A stretch of DNA of 64,000 bases from Methylocystis rosea. GTDB lineage: Bacteria > Pseudomonadota > Alphaproteobacteria > Rhizobiales > Beijerinckiaceae. The notes below the pieces were generated by a model. The model searched no databases, was not told where the DNA came from, and saw nothing but the letters and a program-made list of their open reading frames with translations. Shown here one piece after another: positions 10,159-53,252 of this stretch. The position numbers and the translations under genes are program-made. Location: assembly GCF_003855495.1 (NCBI RefSeq), contig NZ_CP034086.1, positions 2,393,501 to 2,457,500 on the forward strand, given 5' to 3'. How positions within the stretch are numbered: the first letter of the stretch is position 1; the number at the start of each line of letters is the position of its first letter.

Positions 10159-10557
10159 TCAAGCGGCTTTCGAGAAAGTAAAGCGGGAACTTTTTACTTG
10201 TGACGATCTTGTCGAGATTGACCGGCCGCCGGTCTTGTCGATCAGCGTCGTGACCTTGGAGCCGTCGCCGTTGACGACAGTCGTCTCCGTCTGACAGTGG
10301 TCGATGACGGCGTAGCTGTCGACATCCCGCGAGAGCGTGCGGGACTTGCCGTCCGCCGAGGTCACGGAAATCGTCTCGCTCGCTAGCGAACCGTCCGGAT
10401 TGAGCGCCTTGTTTTTGAGGGTCACGGCGCTATTGGCGTCCGTCGCCGTCGTCGAGCGCAGGGCGGCGCCCCTAGCGTCGTAGACGAGAGTCACCGTCGC
10501 CGCCGTTCCCCTCGTCCCGTTGGTGCGGGTGAAAATCGTCTGGCCGTCGATCGATGA
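10159..10557 (-). pseudogene. Fragment of a large repeat-rich (RTX/adhesin-like) protein
   Basis: An open minus-strand frame of about 130 codons has no proper start; the only candidate is a GTG at 10494, and the frame stays open upstream to about 10557. The text repeats Asp-Gly-Ser/Lys units (NPDGSLASETISV, SADGKSRTLSRDVD, NGDGSKVTTLID) typical of large secreted calcium-binding or adhesin-like proteins of alphaproteobacteria. It is GC-rich, unlike the neighbouring orphan genes. The 5' side ends abruptly at the stop of the DUF3592-like gene at 10562. I read it as the stump of a large secreted protein whose remainder was replaced by the neighbouring cassettes. Confidence 0.55.
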
Positions 10558-10561
10558 ACAT

Positions 10562-10957
10562 TTAACGTGAGGCAGTCATTAGAATCCGAAAGATCAGTAG
10601 CAGAAGAACACTCGAGATAGCTAAAGGCGTCCAGATATTCTCATAAGCATCTACAAGCTGACAATTTAGTGCATTTCTTTTATCGCATATCAATAAAACG
10701 TTTTCGCCAACATTTATGCGAAGATAGCCAGCATTAACTTTCACAGTTAACTGCTTATCTCCAGTAGAATACCGCACTAGTAACTCATATAAGTAGTTAT
10801 TGTCGCTGTATAATTTACCTTCACACTGAAGCACAACTCCTTTACATTTTTTCCAATTTCGTGACCGGAAATAGTAAGTAACAATTCTGTGCCAAGACCA
10901 TACGAGGCCCACTGACGCAAAAATGAGGAAAGCAACTAGTTGCAGCTCATTGGACAA
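10562..10957 (-). CDS. DUF3592-like membrane protein
   Basis: 131 residues: an N-terminal membrane helix (residues 5-25), a beta-rich middle domain of about 70 residues with two cysteines, and a C-terminal helix (about 108-127). This helix-domain-helix layout is that of DUF3592 proteins, whose function is unknown. Base composition is strongly AT-rich, unlike the core genes on both sides, which suggests horizontal transfer. The start is a TTG at 10957 with no strong ribosome-binding site, so the N-terminus is uncertain. It is flanked by broken copies of other genes (10159-10557 and 10983-11063), a setting typical of orphan immunity or cassette genes, but there is no direct evidence for such a role. 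Confidence 0.55.
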   Translation of the reverse strand: MSNELQLVAFLIFASVGLVWSWHRIVTYYFRSRNWKKCKGVVLQCEGKLYSDNNYLYELLVRYSTGDKQLTVKVNAGYLRINVGENVLLICDKRNALNCQLVDAYENIWTPLAISSVLLLLIFRILMTASR

Positions 10958-10982
10958 TTTGGATACTCTCTCATTCCGCTTT

Positions 10983-11063
10983 TTATCTGGCGAAGCCAGC
11001 GGAGAATTTTGCTGTCACTGGCCAAATCGCGTCGGAACTCGCCCAATGAACGGCCACCGAATC
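10983..11063 (-). pseudogene. Second scrap of the VHWASSD gene
   Basis: A 26-codon open stretch on the minus strand reads DSVAVHWASSDAIWPV and ends in a TAA at 10983. The text matches AAVHWASSDSLW in the broken gene at 12056-12261. The two share an identical 25-bp block (11031-11055 and 12176-12200) and diverge immediately outside it. This is a direct repeat created by duplication or recombination, now between the DUF3592-like gene and the frameshifted gene at 11094-11532. Confidence 0.55.
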
Positions 11064-11093
11064 TCAAGGCAGGACTTTTCTCACTTGGATATG

Positions 11094-11532
11094 TCAGCCA
11101 TCGTCATCCTCCAAATCAGCAGGAATTCCGGCGGAGCCATACAGCGTGGCCGGATCGCCGGCTTCGTATTCTCGAATTGTCGTTTCGAAAAATTCTGCCA
11201 AACTATTGCGCAGATCGCGCGTGTCTCGCCCGCCAACGACGTTTTGGTAATTCCAGCGTCCCGAACACGTCGTGATTTCGCTTAACATATGCGCTTGCGT
11301 CCACATCATGTGCAGCGGATCGCCAGGGGTGACGCGTCAGCCGCGCATAGCCATCCGGCCAGCCAGGCTCGGCAAGCAGCGAACCGCATGCCTGCAAGCG
11401 CTCCCTATTCGCCAGCTCAAAGAAAGGCGGCCGGTCAGTGAGCGCTGCGCGGAACCTGTAATATTGAGGCGCCTTGGGTTTTCGTCCGCGCATGCGCCGA
11501 GTCTCCACTGCAATTTCAGCCGCCTGCATCAT
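11094..11532 (-). pseudogene. Frameshifted gene of unknown function
   Basis: Two minus-strand frames make sense only when joined. From 11532 one frame reads through ALTDRPPFFELANRERLQAC and GWPDGYARLTR to about 11335. The protein-like text then continues one frame over as VTPGDPLHMMWTQAHMLSEI to a stop at 11094, ending in an acidic tail (ADLEDDDG). A single-base indel near 11325-11340 explains this. The whole would encode about 145 residues. The ATG at 11532 overlaps the stop of an upstream fragment (TGA at 11529-11531), so it once followed another gene closely. Family not recognised. A sequencing error cannot be excluded. Confidence 0.5.
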
Positions 11533-47284: not shown

Positions 47285-47299
47285 GAAACAAAACGAAAC
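47285..47299 (+). promoter_or_regulatory. Direct repeat GAAAC-N5-GAAAC, site A
   Basis: GAAAC at 47285-47289 and again at 47295-47299, ten bases apart (one helical turn), about 105 bp upstream of the sulfotransferase start. The same repeat occurs at sites B and C. Tandem half-sites with 10-11 bp spacing are the usual target of OmpR-family regulators, and one is encoded in this block. Confidence 0.55.
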
Positions 47300-47386
47300 T
47301 AACCAGCCGGAATCTCGACACTCCCGCGCGGAACATTGGCGCCAACTTGCTCCGCCAAGACGCGAGCAATAAGACCGATCTTCTTA

Positions 47387-47400
47387 TGTATAAGAGACAG
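47387..47400 (+). other. 14-base match to the synthetic Tn5 mosaic end
   Basis: TGTATAAGAGACAG is identical to the last 14 bases of the hyperactive Tn5 mosaic end used in tagmentation libraries. Natural Tn5 outer and inner ends differ within this stretch. The five bases before it do not match the full 19-mer. The sulfotransferase frame starts three bases later. Either a chance match (unlikely in 64 kb) or leftover adaptor sequence at an assembly joint. Confidence 0.5.
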
Positions 47401-47402
47401 CA

Positions 47403-48263
47403 GTGAGAGATGCTTCTTACATTGCCAGCCGCATTCAGTCAGTGCTATCAAAACGCCGAAAACTTGCACTATTTACGCACCATAAGTGCGCGTCGACCTG
47501 GCTAACATCGATAGTCGCGAATATTTGCCGAAAGAATAATTTAAAATACATCGCGATCCCCTGGGGGCGTCAATGCCCAGAGTCAGGATACACTATAGAG
47601 ACGGCGCTTAAGTCCGACAATGATGTCGTTGTCGCGCTGAACGCTGACTATTTCAGCATCAAGAATCATCTATCTGCGGACATGCAATGCATGCACGTTA
47701 TAAGGAATCCTTTGAGTGTCGTCGTCTCCGCATACTACTCCCACCTCCGAACCCATCCGACTGATGGATGGGACCTCCTGATTGGTCAGAGGAGTGTTTT
47801 GAGGGAAGTAGACCAAGACGTCGGCATGGCCTTGACCTTGGCGTTTCTGGAATCGCGTCACTTTCAGCCGGAGACGAACGGTCCTTTGTGCGATATGATC
47901 TCGTGGAATTATGACGACTTACGGATCGTCCCGTTGCGCATGGAGGACATAACGTCAAACACAGCTAATTTCTTCCGCGTGCTGTCTCGAATGGAGGTCT
48001 TGAGAAACGCGACGATGCCTGATCCTGATAGGTTTTCGTTTGCCGCAATGACCGGCCGGCAACAGGGGGTGATAGATCTCTCGTCGCATTATCGCTGTGG
48101 AAGCAGCACTGAATGGCGCGATGCTTTGCCGAGAGGAGTTATCTTATATGTCCTTCATCATTATCGAGATTTTCTGCTACGGTTCTATCCAGAAGTTATT
48201 TTCGAAGCTGACTCCTTGAGCGCCGCCAAAGTTCGTTCGAAATCAGACTGCCTACCGGCGTGA
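47403..48263 (+). CDS. Sulfotransferase family protein
   Basis: 286 residues. The PAPS 5'-phosphosulfate loop is THHKCASTWLTSIV (about 26-39), the 3'-phosphate site MHVIRNPLSVVVSAYYSHLR (about 98-117) with conserved Arg and Ser, and the C-terminal YRCGSSTEWRDALP resembles the usual GxxGxW block. It transfers sulfate to a hydroxyl of a glycan or lipid. GC is low relative to the core. It starts with a GTG three bases after the mosaic-end match; if that is an assembly joint, the true N-terminus may be missing. Neighbours (glycosyltransferases) suggest a surface glycan as acceptor. Confidence 0.82.
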   Translation: MRDASYIASRIQSVLSKRRKLALFTHHKCASTWLTSIVANICRKNNLKYIAIPWGRQCPESGYTIETALKSDNDVVVALNADYFSIKNHLSADMQCMHVIRNPLSVVVSAYYSHLRTHPTDGWDLLIGQRSVLREVDQDVGMALTLAFLESRHFQPETNGPLCDMISWNYDDLRIVPLRMEDITSNTANFFRVLSRMEVLRNATMPDPDRFSFAAMTGRQQGVIDLSSHYRCGSSTEWRDALPRGVILYVLHHYRDFLLRFYPEVIFEADSLSAAKVRSKSDCLPA

Positions 48264-48311
48264 GGAGGCGAGAGCGCCAGCGATTGGAGGCTGTCATGCG
48301 CTGCGTTGCGC

Positions 48312-48326
48312 GAAACAAATTGAAAC
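48312..48326 (+). promoter_or_regulatory. Direct repeat GAAAC-N5-GAAAC, site B
   Basis: GAAAC at 48312-48316 and 48322-48326, 77 bp before the response-regulator start. Downstream of both site A and site B is a second shared block (AATCTCGACAC then GCGCGGAAC), so the two promoters are related by descent or bind a second factor. Confidence 0.55.
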
Positions 48327-48402
48327 AACCGCGCCAGAATCTCGACACAGCTGCGCGGAACTCTCGGTTTGGAACTCGCCGCTGCCTCGAAGCCGCGAGT
48401 AG

Positions 48403-49134
48403 GTGAACTCTCCGACCTTGAACAAACCCGCATCAAGCGCGGCCGATAGGCGATGGATCCTCGTCGTCGAGGACGACGAGGATATTCGATCGCTTTTATC
48501 GAAATATCTCAGCGACAACGGGTTCGAGGTGATGCTTGCCCGCGACGGCAAACAGATGGACGCGGTTCTCGCGAGCGAGCAGGTCGACCTTATCGTGCTC
48601 GACATCAACCTTCCCGGTGAGGATGGATTCTCCATCTGCATGCGCTTGCGAGACACGGGAAGTCCCCCATTGATCATGCTGACCGCGCGCGGCGAAGACA
48701 CGGACCGTATACTTGGCATCGAACTTGGGGCGGACGATTATCTGGTCAAACCCTTCGTTCCGCGTGAATTGCTCGCGCGCATCGGGGCCGTCCTCCGGCG
48801 GACTGCACCGGATATTGAGTCGTCCCAGAAAATCAGCGCCTATAGCTTTTCTGGATTCTTCCTGGACTCTTCCACACGGCGCCTGTTGGGCCCGACCGGC
48901 GTACGGGTGATCCTCACGAGCACGGAATTCGACCTGTTGCTGACGCTCTGCCGCAATCCCGGAAAAATATTCTCGCGCGACGAGTTGAAGGCGTCGTCCA
49001 CGACCGAGCGGAGCGTGGACATCCTGATAAGCCGGCTTCGTCAAAAGATCGAGAATGACCCGCGAGACCCGACGCTCATTCAGACGGTCCGCTCGATGGG
49101 CTATACGTTCACCGCGAAAGTCACCGTCCAGTGA
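48403..49134 (+). CDS. OmpR/PhoB-family response regulator
   Basis: 243 residues from a GTG at 48403. The receiver domain (17-130) has the acidic pair EDDED, phospho-acceptor Asp67 in VLDINLPGEDG, Thr94 and Lys116 in LVKPF. The winged-helix effector domain (about 150-240) shows FLDSSTRRLLGP, LTSTEFDLLLTLCRNPGKIF and VDILISRLRQKIENDP, near the OmpR/RstA branch. The stop overlaps the kinase start (GTGA). It is preceded by site B, so autoregulation is likely. Confidence 0.96.
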   Translation: MNSPTLNKPASSAADRRWILVVEDDEDIRSLLSKYLSDNGFEVMLARDGKQMDAVLASEQVDLIVLDINLPGEDGFSICMRLRDTGSPPLIMLTARGEDTDRILGIELGADDYLVKPFVPRELLARIGAVLRRTAPDIESSQKISAYSFSGFFLDSSTRRLLGPTGVRVILTSTEFDLLLTLCRNPGKIFSRDELKASSTTERSVDILISRLRQKIENDPRDPTLIQTVRSMGYTFTAKVTVQ

Positions 49135-50429
49135 GAACATCTGCGCTCCGAAACATCAATGTGCAGCTGGGACTTCTCCTCCTCCTATGCGTCGGCCTGT
49201 TCCACGCGGCGGTGACGACGATCCTTTTCCTGTCCGAACCTGCTCCCGGCCACCCTCGCGACCTGAGCGCCTCCATCGTCGTGGCGGCTTTAACCGCGTT
49301 GGACGCCGCCTCCGCAGCGGAGAGGCCAGCCATCGCAACAGGTTTTAACGAGAACTTTCCGGGGTTTCACGTCGCGCTCTCAGAGCCGGGAGTCGCCCCG
49401 CGCAACGGGGCGCAGCCCGTTTATTTTCGGTTTCGCCTCCCCGTCGGAGTCGAGATCGCAGCGCATGATGACAACAAGCGATTTAGCGGGTCGTTGCACG
49501 ATGGGCAGCAATTCCTGCTCGACGCCCCGATCCGGCCTTCCGGATTTCCCCGGTTCGCGATCGTCACCCTGGGCTTCGTCGCGGTGAGTTTGTTCATCTT
49601 TTCCCTATGGGCCGCGCTGTCGCTTACGCGGCCCCTGACGAATTTCGCGGACGCCGCCGAATCCTTCGGACTCGACAGTGTTCCGGCGCAGCTCGCCGAG
49701 ACAGGACCCGAAGAGGTCCGCAAGGCGACGCGGGCCTTCAACCGCATGCAGCGTCGTATCGCCGAGATGGCCTCTCAGCGAACGCGGATGTTGACGTCGG
49801 TCAGCCACGATCTTCGGACCCCGATCACGCGGATGCGTCTTCGCGCCGAATACATTGAGAGCAGCGAAACGAAAGCAAAACTGCTGCGGGACCTCGACCA
49901 AATGGAGGCGATGGTCGGCGGCTGCCTCGACTATCTGCGCGGTGGTTTCCAGCAGGAGATCGTCGCGCTGGATCTGGCGAGCCTGTTGCAGACGATTGTC
50001 GATCAGTACGTCGATGTTGGCGCCAATGCGCGCTACGACGGAATCGATCACGTCAACGTTCTAGGCAGTCCGGACAATCTTGAACGCGCATTCTCCAACC
50101 TAATCGACAATGCGGTGAAACACGGGGAAAACCCTGAAATCCGAGTGCTCGAAAGCGATGACGCAGCGGTTGTCGAGATCGCTGACAGGGGTCCAGGCAT
50201 CCCCCAAGAAAGAAGGGATTTGATGCTGGAACCCTTCGAGCGAGGAGACGTAGGCGCGTCCTCGAACACAAAAGAGGGCTTCGGGCTCGGCCTGGCGATC
50301 GCGCGCGCGATCGTGGAAGCCCACCGCGGACGCCTCACGCTGGATGAGCGGACCGGCGGCGGCCTGATCGCGAGGGTATCGCTGCCCAAAACCGACCTCG
50401 AAACAAATCGAAACGAATCGAGCAAATAA
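49131..50429 (+). CDS. Membrane sensor histidine kinase (EnvZ-like)
   Basis: 432 residues. Two membrane helices (about 13-34 and 142-165) enclose a periplasmic sensor of about 105 residues. A HAMP segment follows (LTRPLTNFADAAESFGLDSV), then HisKA with SVSHDLRTPITRMRLRAEYI and phospho-acceptor His226. The ATPase core has FSNLIDNAVKHGENPE, EIADRGPGIPQERRDLMLEPF and GFGLGLAIARAIVEAH. It is translationally coupled to the OmpR-type regulator. The 3' end of the gene carries site C, which serves the next gene. Confidence 0.95.
   Translation: MRTSALRNINVQLGLLLLLCVGLFHAAVTTILFLSEPAPGHPRDLSASIVVAALTALDAASAAERPAIATGFNENFPGFHVALSEPGVAPRNGAQPVYFRFRLPVGVEIAAHDDNKRFSGSLHDGQQFLLDAPIRPSGFPRFAIVTLGFVAVSLFIFSLWAALSLTRPLTNFADAAESFGLDSVPAQLAETGPEEVRKATRAFNRMQRRIAEMASQRTRMLTSVSHDLRTPITRMRLRAEYIESSETKAKLLRDLDQMEAMVGGCLDYLRGGFQQEIVALDLASLLQTIVDQYVDVGANARYDGIDHVNVLGSPDNLERAFSNLIDNAVKHGENPEIRVLESDDAAVVEIADRGPGIPQERRDLMLEPFERGDVGASSNTKEGFGLGLAIARAIVEAHRGRLTLDERTGGGLIARVSLPKTDLETNRNESSK
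50400..50414 (+). promoter_or_regulatory. Direct repeat GAAAC-N5-GAAAC, site C
   Basis: GAAAC at 50400-50404 and 50410-50414, inside the last codons of the histidine kinase gene and 62 bp before the first glycosyltransferase start. A third weaker GAATC half-site follows at the same phase. It shares GAAACAAATCGAAAC with sites A and B except for two bases. Confidence 0.5.
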
Positions 50430-50475: not shown

Positions 50476-51732
50476 ATGTCGATACATCAATCAATTCCAG
50501 GCCGCGCCGCGCTATCGGGTAAAACAGTCGCCGTCGTGCATCCTGCGTGGCATTCCTGCGGGACGCATCAGGTTATCGCTAGTCAGATAGAAGCCTACAA
50601 AAAGCTCGGCGCGCGTGTGCTTTCCATTGCGCTGATGGACGATGTCACGCCCTCGGTCGGCCGCGGCGCACGCTGGAAGGATTACAGGGCGCATAGTCAG
50701 GATCTCGCCGCCGACGAGAGATATGAATCGTCCGCCACGATCCCCGACCTCTTCAAGACAACGCTCCTGAAGGACGGCTGGTGGCCCCTAACGCATGGCG
50801 ATCAGGCAACCTGGCTGGTGGAGCTGGTGAAGCGCGCGCCTCTTCCCGAAGCGCTCGATACGAACGCTATTGACCTGATTCACGCCAACCACTTTTTCGT
50901 CTTGCCTTTCGCCGAGAAAATGCGCGAGAGGCGCAGTATTCCCGTCGTCCTCGACACTCACGACATCCAGGCTCGGCAATACGAGCTGCGCAATCGTGCA
51001 GGCTTTAGCATTCCGCCTTACGTTGGCTATAGGAGCATGCTTGCCGTCGAACTCGATTGGATCAAGCGCGCCGACGTTTGCATTCACTTGAATTCGGAAG
51101 AGTATGCGGCGTTTCAGCAGCTTCTGCCTCTCGCGCAACACGAGCTGATCTATCCCTCGATCGCCCCTGCGCTACCTCACGACAATGGCGATCACGCTAT
51201 TTTCGTCGCTGGCAACAACGCAGCCAACTACATCAGCGTTCGATGGTTCTTGAAATATATTGTGCCGCGCGTGCCTGAAATATCGATTTCAATTTTTGGC
51301 GATATCGCCGATGGCGTGAAAAGCCGTGACAGACTTCTGTACAAGGAGCATCGCAATCTGTTCCGTGGCAGAGTAGCTGAAATACAGTCTGCCTACGCCG
51401 ATGCAGCTTTAGTTCTCCTCCCCACCAGAGAAGGGCACGGCCTTTCGATCAAAACCGTGGAAGCTCTCTCCAGCGGACTGCCGGTCGTCGCGACGTCGAA
51501 GGCTTTCAGAGGAATGGGGATCGATCCATCACAGCTTCGCAACGTGTTCATCGCGGACGACGCCGCCGAATTCGCCGCCGCCATGATGAAGCGTCGTGGG
51601 ATGAGCGAACGAAGCGATCCGATGACGAGCGATACGCGCGCATTATACGAAGAGAGATACTCATCTGAGCGTTATGCGAGTCGGCTCGGCGACATCGCAA
51701 GCAAGTTGATGGCCCGTATGCGAGCGACGTGA
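50476..51732 (+). CDS. Glycosyltransferase (GT4-type, GT-B fold)
   Basis: 418 residues. The N-terminal half has VAVVHPAWHSCGTHQVIASQ (acceptor-side loop) and VLDTHDIQARQYEL. The C-terminal nucleotide-sugar domain has IFVAGNNAANYISVRWFLKYI, the FGDIADG block and TREGHGLSIKTVEALSSGLPVVAT, where the conserved acidic motif of GT4 (E-x7-E) appears as E in EGHGLSIKTVE. It builds a surface glycan from an unknown sugar nucleotide. It is close behind site C and probably starts its own transcript. Confidence 0.88.
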   Translation: MSIHQSIPGRAALSGKTVAVVHPAWHSCGTHQVIASQIEAYKKLGARVLSIALMDDVTPSVGRGARWKDYRAHSQDLAADERYESSATIPDLFKTTLLKDGWWPLTHGDQATWLVELVKRAPLPEALDTNAIDLIHANHFFVLPFAEKMRERRSIPVVLDTHDIQARQYELRNRAGFSIPPYVGYRSMLAVELDWIKRADVCIHLNSEEYAAFQQLLPLAQHELIYPSIAPALPHDNGDHAIFVAGNNAANYISVRWFLKYIVPRVPEISISIFGDIADGVKSRDRLLYKEHRNLFRGRVAEIQSAYADAALVLLPTREGHGLSIKTVEALSSGLPVVATSKAFRGMGIDPSQLRNVFIADDAAEFAAAMMKRRGMSERSDPMTSDTRALYEERYSSERYASRLGDIASKLMARMRAT

Positions 51733-51860: not shown

Positions 51861-53252
51861 ATGGCGCAGGAAATTGAACACGAAAGCGAGGTCGCCCTTT
51901 TTCTCGCGTCGCAGATTCAGCTAGAGAACCTCGAAATGAAGCGCAGACGCATGGCGGATGCGCTCGATCCAGTGACAGCTTTCGTCTACTTCAAATTGAG
52001 AGAATTTTACTGGACTGTGACCAAGCAGCTAGGACTTGGTCATCTGCACAATGGATCGAGGACTCGCGACCGCTCGAGACTCAGGCGCCGACCTCTGTTG
52101 CCAAGAGAACTCGCCGCGGACGACACGCTCTCCTCCATCTCCTCTTGCCGTATTTTCATCGATGTAACGCCAACGCTACGTGTTGGAGGGAAAACCGGCG
52201 TGCAGCGCGTCGTTCGCGAAATAGCCAAGAGATCAATCCAGGATCGATTTGCGCTTCCCGTCGTTGTCGAAAATGGCGAACTTCTTTCGTACTACGATCA
52301 TCCGTTGCTCCCGGCCTCGATCACGTTCAGGGAAGGCGACAAATTCATGCTCCTCGACGCAAGCTGGGGCATACTTTCGGAGCATCTGCCTCTTATTCAG
52401 CGTCTCGCCGATGTCGGCGGACAGCTCATAACGGTCGTACATGACCTGATCCCCTTGATCCATCCGCTCAGCGTCACGCCGCGAATGACTGAGGAATTCA
52501 ACGAGTGGTTCGAAAAACTCGTGCTGAAAAGCGATCGCATCATATGCGTCTCAAAGAGCACTGCGATGGATTTCATCGCCTATGTCGCGCGCAAAGACCT
52601 CGCGACCAAGCCGCATCTTCGCATCGGCTGGTGGCGACTGGGCGCGGATTTCAACGACGAAGAGAATTCATCGATTTCTTCTGAGGCCAAAACCGTGACC
52701 GCAAGCGAAACGCCTTACTTTTTAAGCGTGGGCACTCTTGAACCGCGAAAATGCTACCCGATCGCGCTCGACGCTTTCGAACGCCTTTGGTCGCGCGGGA
52801 TCGACGCGCGTTACGTCATCATTGGCCAAGCAGGTTGGCAAAGCGAATCTCTCGAACATCGCATCAAACAACACAACGAATTTGGGCGACGCCTTCTATG
52901 GCTCGATAAGGCGAGCGACGCCGATCTTCATCACTGCTATACCCATGCGCGCGCATTGGTTTATCCATCGATGATCGAAGGATTTGGCCTCCCGCTCGTT
53001 GAAGCTGGTCGTTACGGGCTTCCAGTCATCGCGTCGGATTTGCCGGTGTTCCACGAAATCGGCGGAGATCACGTCCGCTATTTCAATTTACTGGACTCGA
53101 TCGACTTGGCCGACAAAATCGAGAAGCTCTATCGAGAACCGATCGAAAAAGAAAAGATGCCTGTTTATTCCTGGGACGATTCTGCGCGCAGTCTCGCCAG
53201 TCTAATCTTGAATGATGCCTATCAGACCCGCGCTGAGGTGGTCCCCGCCTGA
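51861..53252 (+). CDS. Glycosyltransferase (GT4-type) with N-terminal extension
   Basis: 463 residues from an ATG with AGGAG site. The first about 85 residues are a polar extension with helical character. The GT-B core follows: FIDVTPTLRVGGKTGVQRVV as acceptor-domain start, VVHDLIPLIHPLSVTPRMTEEF, then the donor domain FLSVGTLEPRKCYPIALDAF, ALVYPSMIEGFGLPLVEAGRYGLPVIASD with the E-x7-E motif. This resembles mannosyl/rhamnosyl transferases of O-antigen loci. It is 128 bp after the previous gene and likely in the same operon. Confidence 0.9.
   Translation: MAQEIEHESEVALFLASQIQLENLEMKRRRMADALDPVTAFVYFKLREFYWTVTKQLGLGHLHNGSRTRDRSRLRRRPLLPRELAADDTLSSISSCRIFIDVTPTLRVGGKTGVQRVVREIAKRSIQDRFALPVVVENGELLSYYDHPLLPASITFREGDKFMLLDASWGILSEHLPLIQRLADVGGQLITVVHDLIPLIHPLSVTPRMTEEFNEWFEKLVLKSDRIICVSKSTAMDFIAYVARKDLATKPHLRIGWWRLGADFNDEENSSISSEAKTVTASETPYFLSVGTLEPRKCYPIALDAFERLWSRGIDARYVIIGQAGWQSESLEHRIKQHNEFGRRLLWLDKASDADLHHCYTHARALVYPSMIEGFGLPLVEAGRYGLPVIASDLPVFHEIGGDHVRYFNLLDSIDLADKIEKLYREPIEKEKMPVYSWDDSARSLASLILNDAYQTRAEVVPA

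Follow-up and report, generated by a model that had tools for sequence, protein, structure and literature searches.

A tandem GAAAC repeat as the predicted operator of a small, autoregulated OmpR-family regulon in Methylocystis

We analyzed a 64,000-nucleotide stretch of Methylocystis rosea DNA (G000:C1:2393501-2457500, hereafter the window, from genome G000 of 4.21 Mb in 3 contigs) in which a direct repeat with two GAAAC half-sites, GAAACAAANNGAAAC, lies ahead of a sulfotransferase gene, a response regulator gene, and a glycosyltransferase gene. With a probability of roughly 85%, we propose that this repeat serves as operator for the OmpR-family response regulator whose gene lies at 48403-49134, and that this regulator would control its own expression and that of a small regulon. 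This reading follows from the co-occurrence of site and regulator across the genus, from conservation of the site at target promoters, and from its survival after gene relocation; the same three lines of sequence evidence support the proposal, made in an earlier note on this DNA, of a self-regulating OmpR-type operator for the regulator’s own, sulfotransferase, and glycosyltransferase genes. In the mechanism that we envisage, the kinase encoded next door would phosphorylate the response regulator, which would bind both GAAAC half-sites in a head-to-tail arrangement and, in G000, would control four promoters: those of its own operon, of the sulfotransferase gene, of the glycosyltransferase pair, and of an unlinked outer-membrane barrel gene at G000:C1:596074. 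The output would presumably be a remodelling of surface glycans and of the outer membrane. Across species, the site tends to stay with its target genes even after the genes move.

The Repeat in the Window and in the Genome

The three copies of the repeat and the genes among which they lie are, in window coordinates:

47285-47299, + strand: operator S1, GAAACAAAACGAAAC, an exact GAAACAAANNGAAAC match preceding the sulfotransferase gene
47403-48263, + strand: sulfotransferase-fold protein, 286 amino acids (aa), by a weak PF00685 match and predicted structure
48312-48326, + strand: operator S2, GAAACAAATTGAAAC, an exact GAAACAAANNGAAAC match preceding the response regulator gene
48403-49134, + strand: OmpR-family response regulator, 243 aa (PF00072 at 101 bits, PF00486 at 69 bits, both above cut-off)
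49131-50429, + strand: sensor histidine kinase, 432 aa (HAMP, HisKA, HATPase_c)
50400-50414, + strand: operator S3, GAAACAAATCGAAAC, an exact GAAACAAANNGAAAC match within the 3' end of the kinase gene, ahead of the glycosyltransferase gene
50476-51732, + strand: glycosyltransferase, PF13692 by Pfam match, a core target with S3 upstream
51861-53252, + strand: second glycosyltransferase, PF00534, without a site of its own

The earlier note had reported three GAAAC-N5-GAAAC copies ahead of three genes with half-sites exactly 10 bp apart, and this is what we find, start to start, with each copy pointing at the gene downstream of it. Its positions stand; the gaps to the gene starts at 47403, 48403, and 50476 are 103, 76, and 61 bases, each one less than the 104, 77, and 62 bp that it gave, by counting convention. 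That the repeat occurs nowhere else in the window is borne out for exact GAAAC-N5-GAAAC matches, which are S1, S2, and S3 only, with 4 others at one mismatch. The genome-wide search that it had called for returned, rather than many scattered copies, 3 exact matches to GAAACAAANNGAAAC, again S1, S2, and S3, and 3 further ones at one mismatch, compared with 1 at up to one mismatch for a backwards control pattern; Markov models of order 1 to 4, trained on the window, predict 0.0011-0.0017 exact matches per 64 kb and 0.08-0.11 per 4.21 Mb. The loose GAAAC-N5-GAAAC pattern was rejected as a genome-wide marker, being at chance level (9 seen vs. 7.7-9.3 predicted), and allowing one mismatch leaves only weak enrichment in the window (7 vs. 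3.63 expected), so that the signal lies in the AAA that follows the first half-site and in clustering. Two of the one-mismatch sites, G000:C1:462006 and C2:219503, showed no match to nine window query proteins within the surrounding 3 kb.

Conservation at Target Promoters

The genus sample consisted of 39 genomes (37 plus two further), in which kinase identity was used to score the presence of the two-component pair. Of the 37, 17 have the kinase at 63-100% identity, and G062, one of the two further genomes, has it at 73%, giving 18 of 39; genomes without the pair yield best kinase matches of at most 45% identity and partial length. Wide loci were taken for 17 genomes, and since one of these (L083, from G034) comes from the end of a contig and holds no more than part of the kinase, regulator and kinase were aligned in 16. 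S2 is kept in all 16 loci, its first half-site reading GAAAC in 3, GCAAC in 10, and GCGAC in 3. S3 is likewise kept in 16 of 16, exactly in 15 and with one mismatch in G007. The 8 loci with S1 are exactly those with a near-complete sulfotransferase gene; in L069, where that gene is reduced to a 42-residue remnant, no S1 was found.

Around S1, mean pairwise identity among the 8 loci is 0.35-0.48 upstream, 0.92 in the site, and 0.97 at positions 20-36 counted from the site start; around S2, the corresponding values for 16 loci are 0.34-0.37, 0.88, and 0.93. In both cases the site forms the upstream edge of a conserved region of ~37-45 bases, whose downstream parts in the window are:

47300-47329, + strand: conserved stretch 3' of S1 that includes GCCGGAATCTCGACAC, from the identity profile of 8 loci, shared with S2
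48327-48356, + strand: conserved stretch 3' of S2 that includes GCCAGAATCTCGACAC, from the identity profile of 16 loci

Judged from their position and conservation, these stretches are probably the core promoters, and S1 and S2 have in common a downstream box, GCCRGAATCTCGACAC, at equal distance from the site. As a separate element this box was rejected: its only 2 exact matches in the genome are those at S1 and S2, with no second exact family, and genome-wide it has one match at one mismatch and 14 at two (backwards control, 2 at up to two mismatches). The one-mismatch box, GCCAGAATCTCAACAC, lies on another contig (G000:C2:301104-301119). Bases 48375-48399, in the leader that separates S2 from the regulator start, may form a hairpin, seen by eye, which reads CTCGCCGCTGGCTCGAAGCCGCGAG in relatives.

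With the site at the upstream edge of a conserved operator and core-promoter-like block, the regulator is probably an activator; PMC9275681 places the sites of genes activated by CenR, an OmpR-family regulator of Rhodobacter sphaeroides, upstream of the -35. That the regulator binds the site and represses, or acts in a mixed mode, is a variant of the same explanation, with odds that overlap those of activation, and we hold it to be unlikely: the same paper predicts 42 of 59 candidate CenR units to be activated and 17 repressed (PMC9275681), but the site here lies neither over nor downstream of the promoter block.

Co-occurrence of Site and Two-Component Pair

A site model was built from sequence only, using 34 distinct 37-base sites from 16 genomes, and the best 150 candidates per genome were scored; 16 of the 18 pair-bearing genomes supplied sites, and G034 and G062 did not. 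All 18 genus genomes with the pair have matches at E ≤0.01; none of the 21 without it does, the best match there having E 0.0585. The 45 matches at E ≤2.5e-4 are all known sites of the 16 genomes, and the 46th is S2 of G007 at E 0.011; the other matches better than 0.01 belong to G034 (0.0044) and G062 (0.0069), both beside the regulator. Among these best 150 candidates per genome no further members turned up within the genus, and two weaker ones were not accepted: G034:C3:20009 (E 0.016, ahead of a kinase gene) and G036:C21:95057 (E 0.022, within an open reading frame). The 46 sites of the 16 genomes, collected with a fixed-spacing pattern, fit tandem direct half-sites ~10 bp apart. Exact GMAACAAMNNGAAAC has 47 matches in the 39 genomes, of which 36 are at module loci, including one that adjoins the G034 regulator, and 11 lie elsewhere.

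This distribution also bears on whether a different transcription factor, encoded elsewhere, binds the site and controls the two-component genes together with their neighbours. The regulator’s role as binder is our inference, and the genome holds 15 other regulator matches, 13 of them over >190 residues and hence with the DNA-binding part included; a kinase paralogue of ~39-45% identity is, however, present in many genomes that have no sites, which, with the 18 of 18 against 0 of 21 at E 0.01, makes such a factor quite improbable.

Relocation, S3, and an Unlinked Target

Returning to binding by the response regulator encoded beside the sites, G007 (locus L082) provides a case of gene movement: its glycosyltransferase, at 69% identity, has been relocated ~3 kb away on the opposite strand with its own site 15/15 identical, and 11 of the 40 bases upstream of that site differ. 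In the same locus, a partial 42% glycosyltransferase match (oriented 10699-11127) follows the S3 that lies beside the kinase.

S3 occupies the last codons of the kinase gene, a point absent from the earlier note. A codon test on 13 in-frame rows (excluding L078, out of frame, and L080 and L081, where the kinase ends ahead of the site) found third positions invariant in 3 of 5 site codons (GAA, ACA, CGA), which we take as moderate evidence for conservation of the DNA itself. Stronger evidence comes from L080 and L081, in which the kinase stop falls 4 bases ahead of S3, yet S3 is intact. In these two loci S3 (oriented 10544-10568 and 11268-11292) also carries a third GAA-type half-site in 10-bp phase, GAAACAAAACGAAACAAATCGAACA, which suggests room for a third regulator monomer.

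The remaining one-mismatch site in G000, G000:C1:595942, sits 132 bases ahead of the outer-membrane barrel gene at G000:C1:596074 (PF13505, 38 bits; cut-off 28.7), 1.85 Mb from the module. The 39 genomes gave 32 matches at E 1e-25; loci were taken for 30 of these, two of which are pieces of one gene, leaving 29 barrel genes; a site with up to two mismatches lies 128-140 bases ahead of the start in five of them (G000, G014, G023, G004, and G007), all in genomes with the two-component pair, and the upstream sequence examined for the other 24 held none at that threshold. The barrel proteins of G000, G014, G023, and G004 are 94-100% identical to that of G000, and that of G007 matches it at 62-68% in two pieces; in G007 and in G253, a genome from outside the genus, the barrel gene adjoins the glycosyltransferase. 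By its site, the distant gene appears to belong to the regulon, which would accordingly not be entirely the compact module of the earlier note. Duplication of one promoter, with S1 and S2 alike by common descent and not by selection on a binding site, is hardly credible as the full account: in the window S1 and S2 agree at 41/53 bases from the site start and at 7/40 upstream, so that duplication was perhaps the origin of one of them, yet it does not explain maintenance, the S3 and barrel-gene sites having the 15-base core and little else in common and sites being retained among loci with 0.34-0.48 identity in the upstream flanks.

Divergent Loci and Other Genera

A model search of 23 genomes outside the genus gave its top match in G253, which had not been used for the model and has three matches (E 0.0092, 0.04, and 0.205). 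They lie 111, 61, and 116 bases ahead of its regulator, glycosyltransferase, and barrel genes, respectively; at the position of the downstream box, the G253 regulator and barrel promoters read GCGCCCTGATCTCAAC and TCGGCCCTGATCTTGCC. More distant pairs (kinase at 41-46% identity in G085, G294, and G243; also G055 and G048) have degenerate sites only, and near the pair of G085 not even a degenerate site was found. A GAAACATTCG site at the kinase 3' end in G294 and G243, as for S3, is suggestive. In L223 (8179-8193, - strand) and L224 (9207-9221, + strand), which come from two genomes of another genus and carry a 41-42% kinase, a degenerate site of this type, followed by ATTGGCGCCGGCATT, lies at the S3 position.

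In G062, whose pair is at 73% and 78% identity, a second site precedes the gene for a 250-aa protein that does not match the window sulfotransferase (BLASTP E 0.32). Its structural model, with a predicted local distance difference test (pLDDT) score of 92.0, matches 3'-phosphoadenosine-5'-phosphosulfate (PAPS) sulfotransferases at a best E of 2.0e-5 and a template-modeling (TM) score of about 0.5, and 2 of 52 relatives listed carry PF13469 or PF00685; judged from this model, it is a sequence-unrelated sulfotransferase-fold protein encoded 3' of such a site. On visual inspection, the bases that follow the second G062 site resemble those that follow S3. The site of G034 faces GHMP-kinase and nucleotidyltransferase genes, 1.1 kb from the first of them, and a weaker GAAACGATTTGAAAC lies 0.4 kb from that first gene, so the target in G034 is uncertain.

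It is important to note that several of these observations weigh against the regulator-operator reading. A different factor inherited together with the pair would account equally for the co-occurrence, and the search behind the latter covers just the best 150 candidates per genome. The G253 E-values are modest, with single matches in G243 (0.028), G059 (0.058), and G068 (0.094) interspersed among them. Of the G062 sites, the one that precedes the regulator is degenerate, with 2 mismatches, and the second is in opposite orientation, 277 bases ahead of its gene. The G034 site points away from the regulator, and in the ~500 bases scanned ahead of that regulator on its strand no site was found at up to 4 mismatches. 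Finally, third positions as invariant as those in the S3 codons also occur in 9 of the 40 codons before S3 and in 3 of the 4 after it.

Comparison with Known Systems

For OmpR-family regulators, direct repeats whose half-sites are spaced ~10 bp apart have been described (PMC9275681). CenK-CenR offers a close comparison in architecture: an alphaproteobacterial OmpR-family regulator, a tandem direct repeat with half-sites described as 10 bp apart, and sites upstream of its own and of envelope genes (PMC9275681). It differs in the site itself (TGA-N8-TGA, as opposed to GAAACAAANYGAAAC here), in extent (59 candidate units, 31 with motif, as opposed to four promoters), and in distribution, CenR being essential and predicted to be conserved in Alphaproteobacteria (PMC9275681) whereas the pair studied here occurs in 18 of 39 genus genomes. 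Read against that motif, S1, S2, and S3 do not match TGA-N8-TGA, and the CenK/CenR operator was rejected as an identity for the repeat.

The ExoS/ChvI (BvrS/BvrR) system of rhizobia and Brucella has Omp25-type outer-membrane proteins and polysaccharide genes under its control and affects the lipopolysaccharide sulfotransferase gene lpsS indirectly via ExoR or SyrA (PMC2858072, PMC12445080); two-component control of outer-membrane protein, polysaccharide, and sulfotransferase genes is the likeness to the present case. Identity with ExoS/ChvI (ChvG/ChvI) was nevertheless rejected, as PF13756 is not among the kinase matches at E 0.001. The sole PF13756 match in the genome is in another kinase, at 2623810, which adjoins a regulator 35% identical to ours, and the domain was found in 1 of 14 control genomes, that of Caulobacter vibrioides. 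We take this sensing domain to mark ChvG. Nor did a regular-expression search of the surroundings of the paralogues turn up HprK or PckA motifs.

EnvZ/OmpR gives the best NCBIfam matches for both proteins and has in common with the present system an outer-membrane barrel gene among the targets; the targets here, in contrast, include sulfotransferase and glycosyltransferase genes. Equivalog status was rejected, both scores being below the curated cut-offs (regulator to OmpR, 232.2 bits vs. 331; kinase to EnvZ, 197.2 bits vs. 415).

The predicted operator of a small regulon is ordinary in kind and new in its targets and details. An open-access literature search found nothing joining Methylocystis with a two-component system and sulfotransferase, nor with OmpR and EnvZ; on GAAAC direct repeats and OmpR-type response regulators it gave a single paper, on GlnR of Streptomyces. 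The present analysis defines, for a small envelope-remodelling regulon in methanotrophs, a regulator, a predicted operator, and four target promoters, and would link a sulfotransferase gene to a two-component system in a methanotroph, for which lpsS in Sinorhizobium is reported as an indirect precedent (PMC2858072, PMC12445080). If true, the exchange of one sulfotransferase for an unrelated one beside the same operator type would be a clear instance of regulatory conservation with effector turnover, and is the part worth following. A broader idea, that operator and regulator are conserved while effectors are exchangeable (unrelated sulfotransferases, glycosyltransferases, possibly heptose-type genes, the barrel) and together form a dedicated methanotroph surface-modification switch, is tentative, with the odds somewhat against it; were it true, different species would have brought effectors under the same operator or dropped them from it, so that one signal would lead to different surface chemistries.

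Gene Products of the Module

Receiver and winged-helix domains in the regulator and an adjoining kinase with HAMP, HisKA, and HATPase_c (25.2, 32.9, and 85 bits against cut-offs of 25, 26.9, and 26.4) identify the pair as an OmpR-family two-component system. Kinase relatives at 79-98% identity come from 12 named loci: 9 Methylocystis, one Methylocystaceae, and two Alphaproteobacteria.

The protein encoded at 47403-48263 is, according to its model, of sulfotransferase fold. Its PF00685 match scores 14.5 bits, below the cut-off of 22, and its relatives at 42-43% identity carry PF00685; the model (pLDDT 89.5) finds as its best Foldseek matches PAPS sulfotransferase (SULT) structures with PAP (E 4.6e-6, probability 1.00), the TM scores among the best 50 Foldseek rows being only about 0.42-0.57. 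Residues R101 and S109 are invariant across 46 aligned sequences. For the sulfation of a surface polymer suggested in the earlier note, the predicted fold speaks for the enzyme, and we infer only by extension that the acceptor would be such a polymer.

For the PF13692 glycosyltransferase, the 120 relatives listed are mostly 49-58% identical, and several are named Methylocystis or Methylosinus. The second glycosyltransferase (51861-53252) is possibly co-transcribed with it, and is missing or fragmentary in several loci that retain the first.

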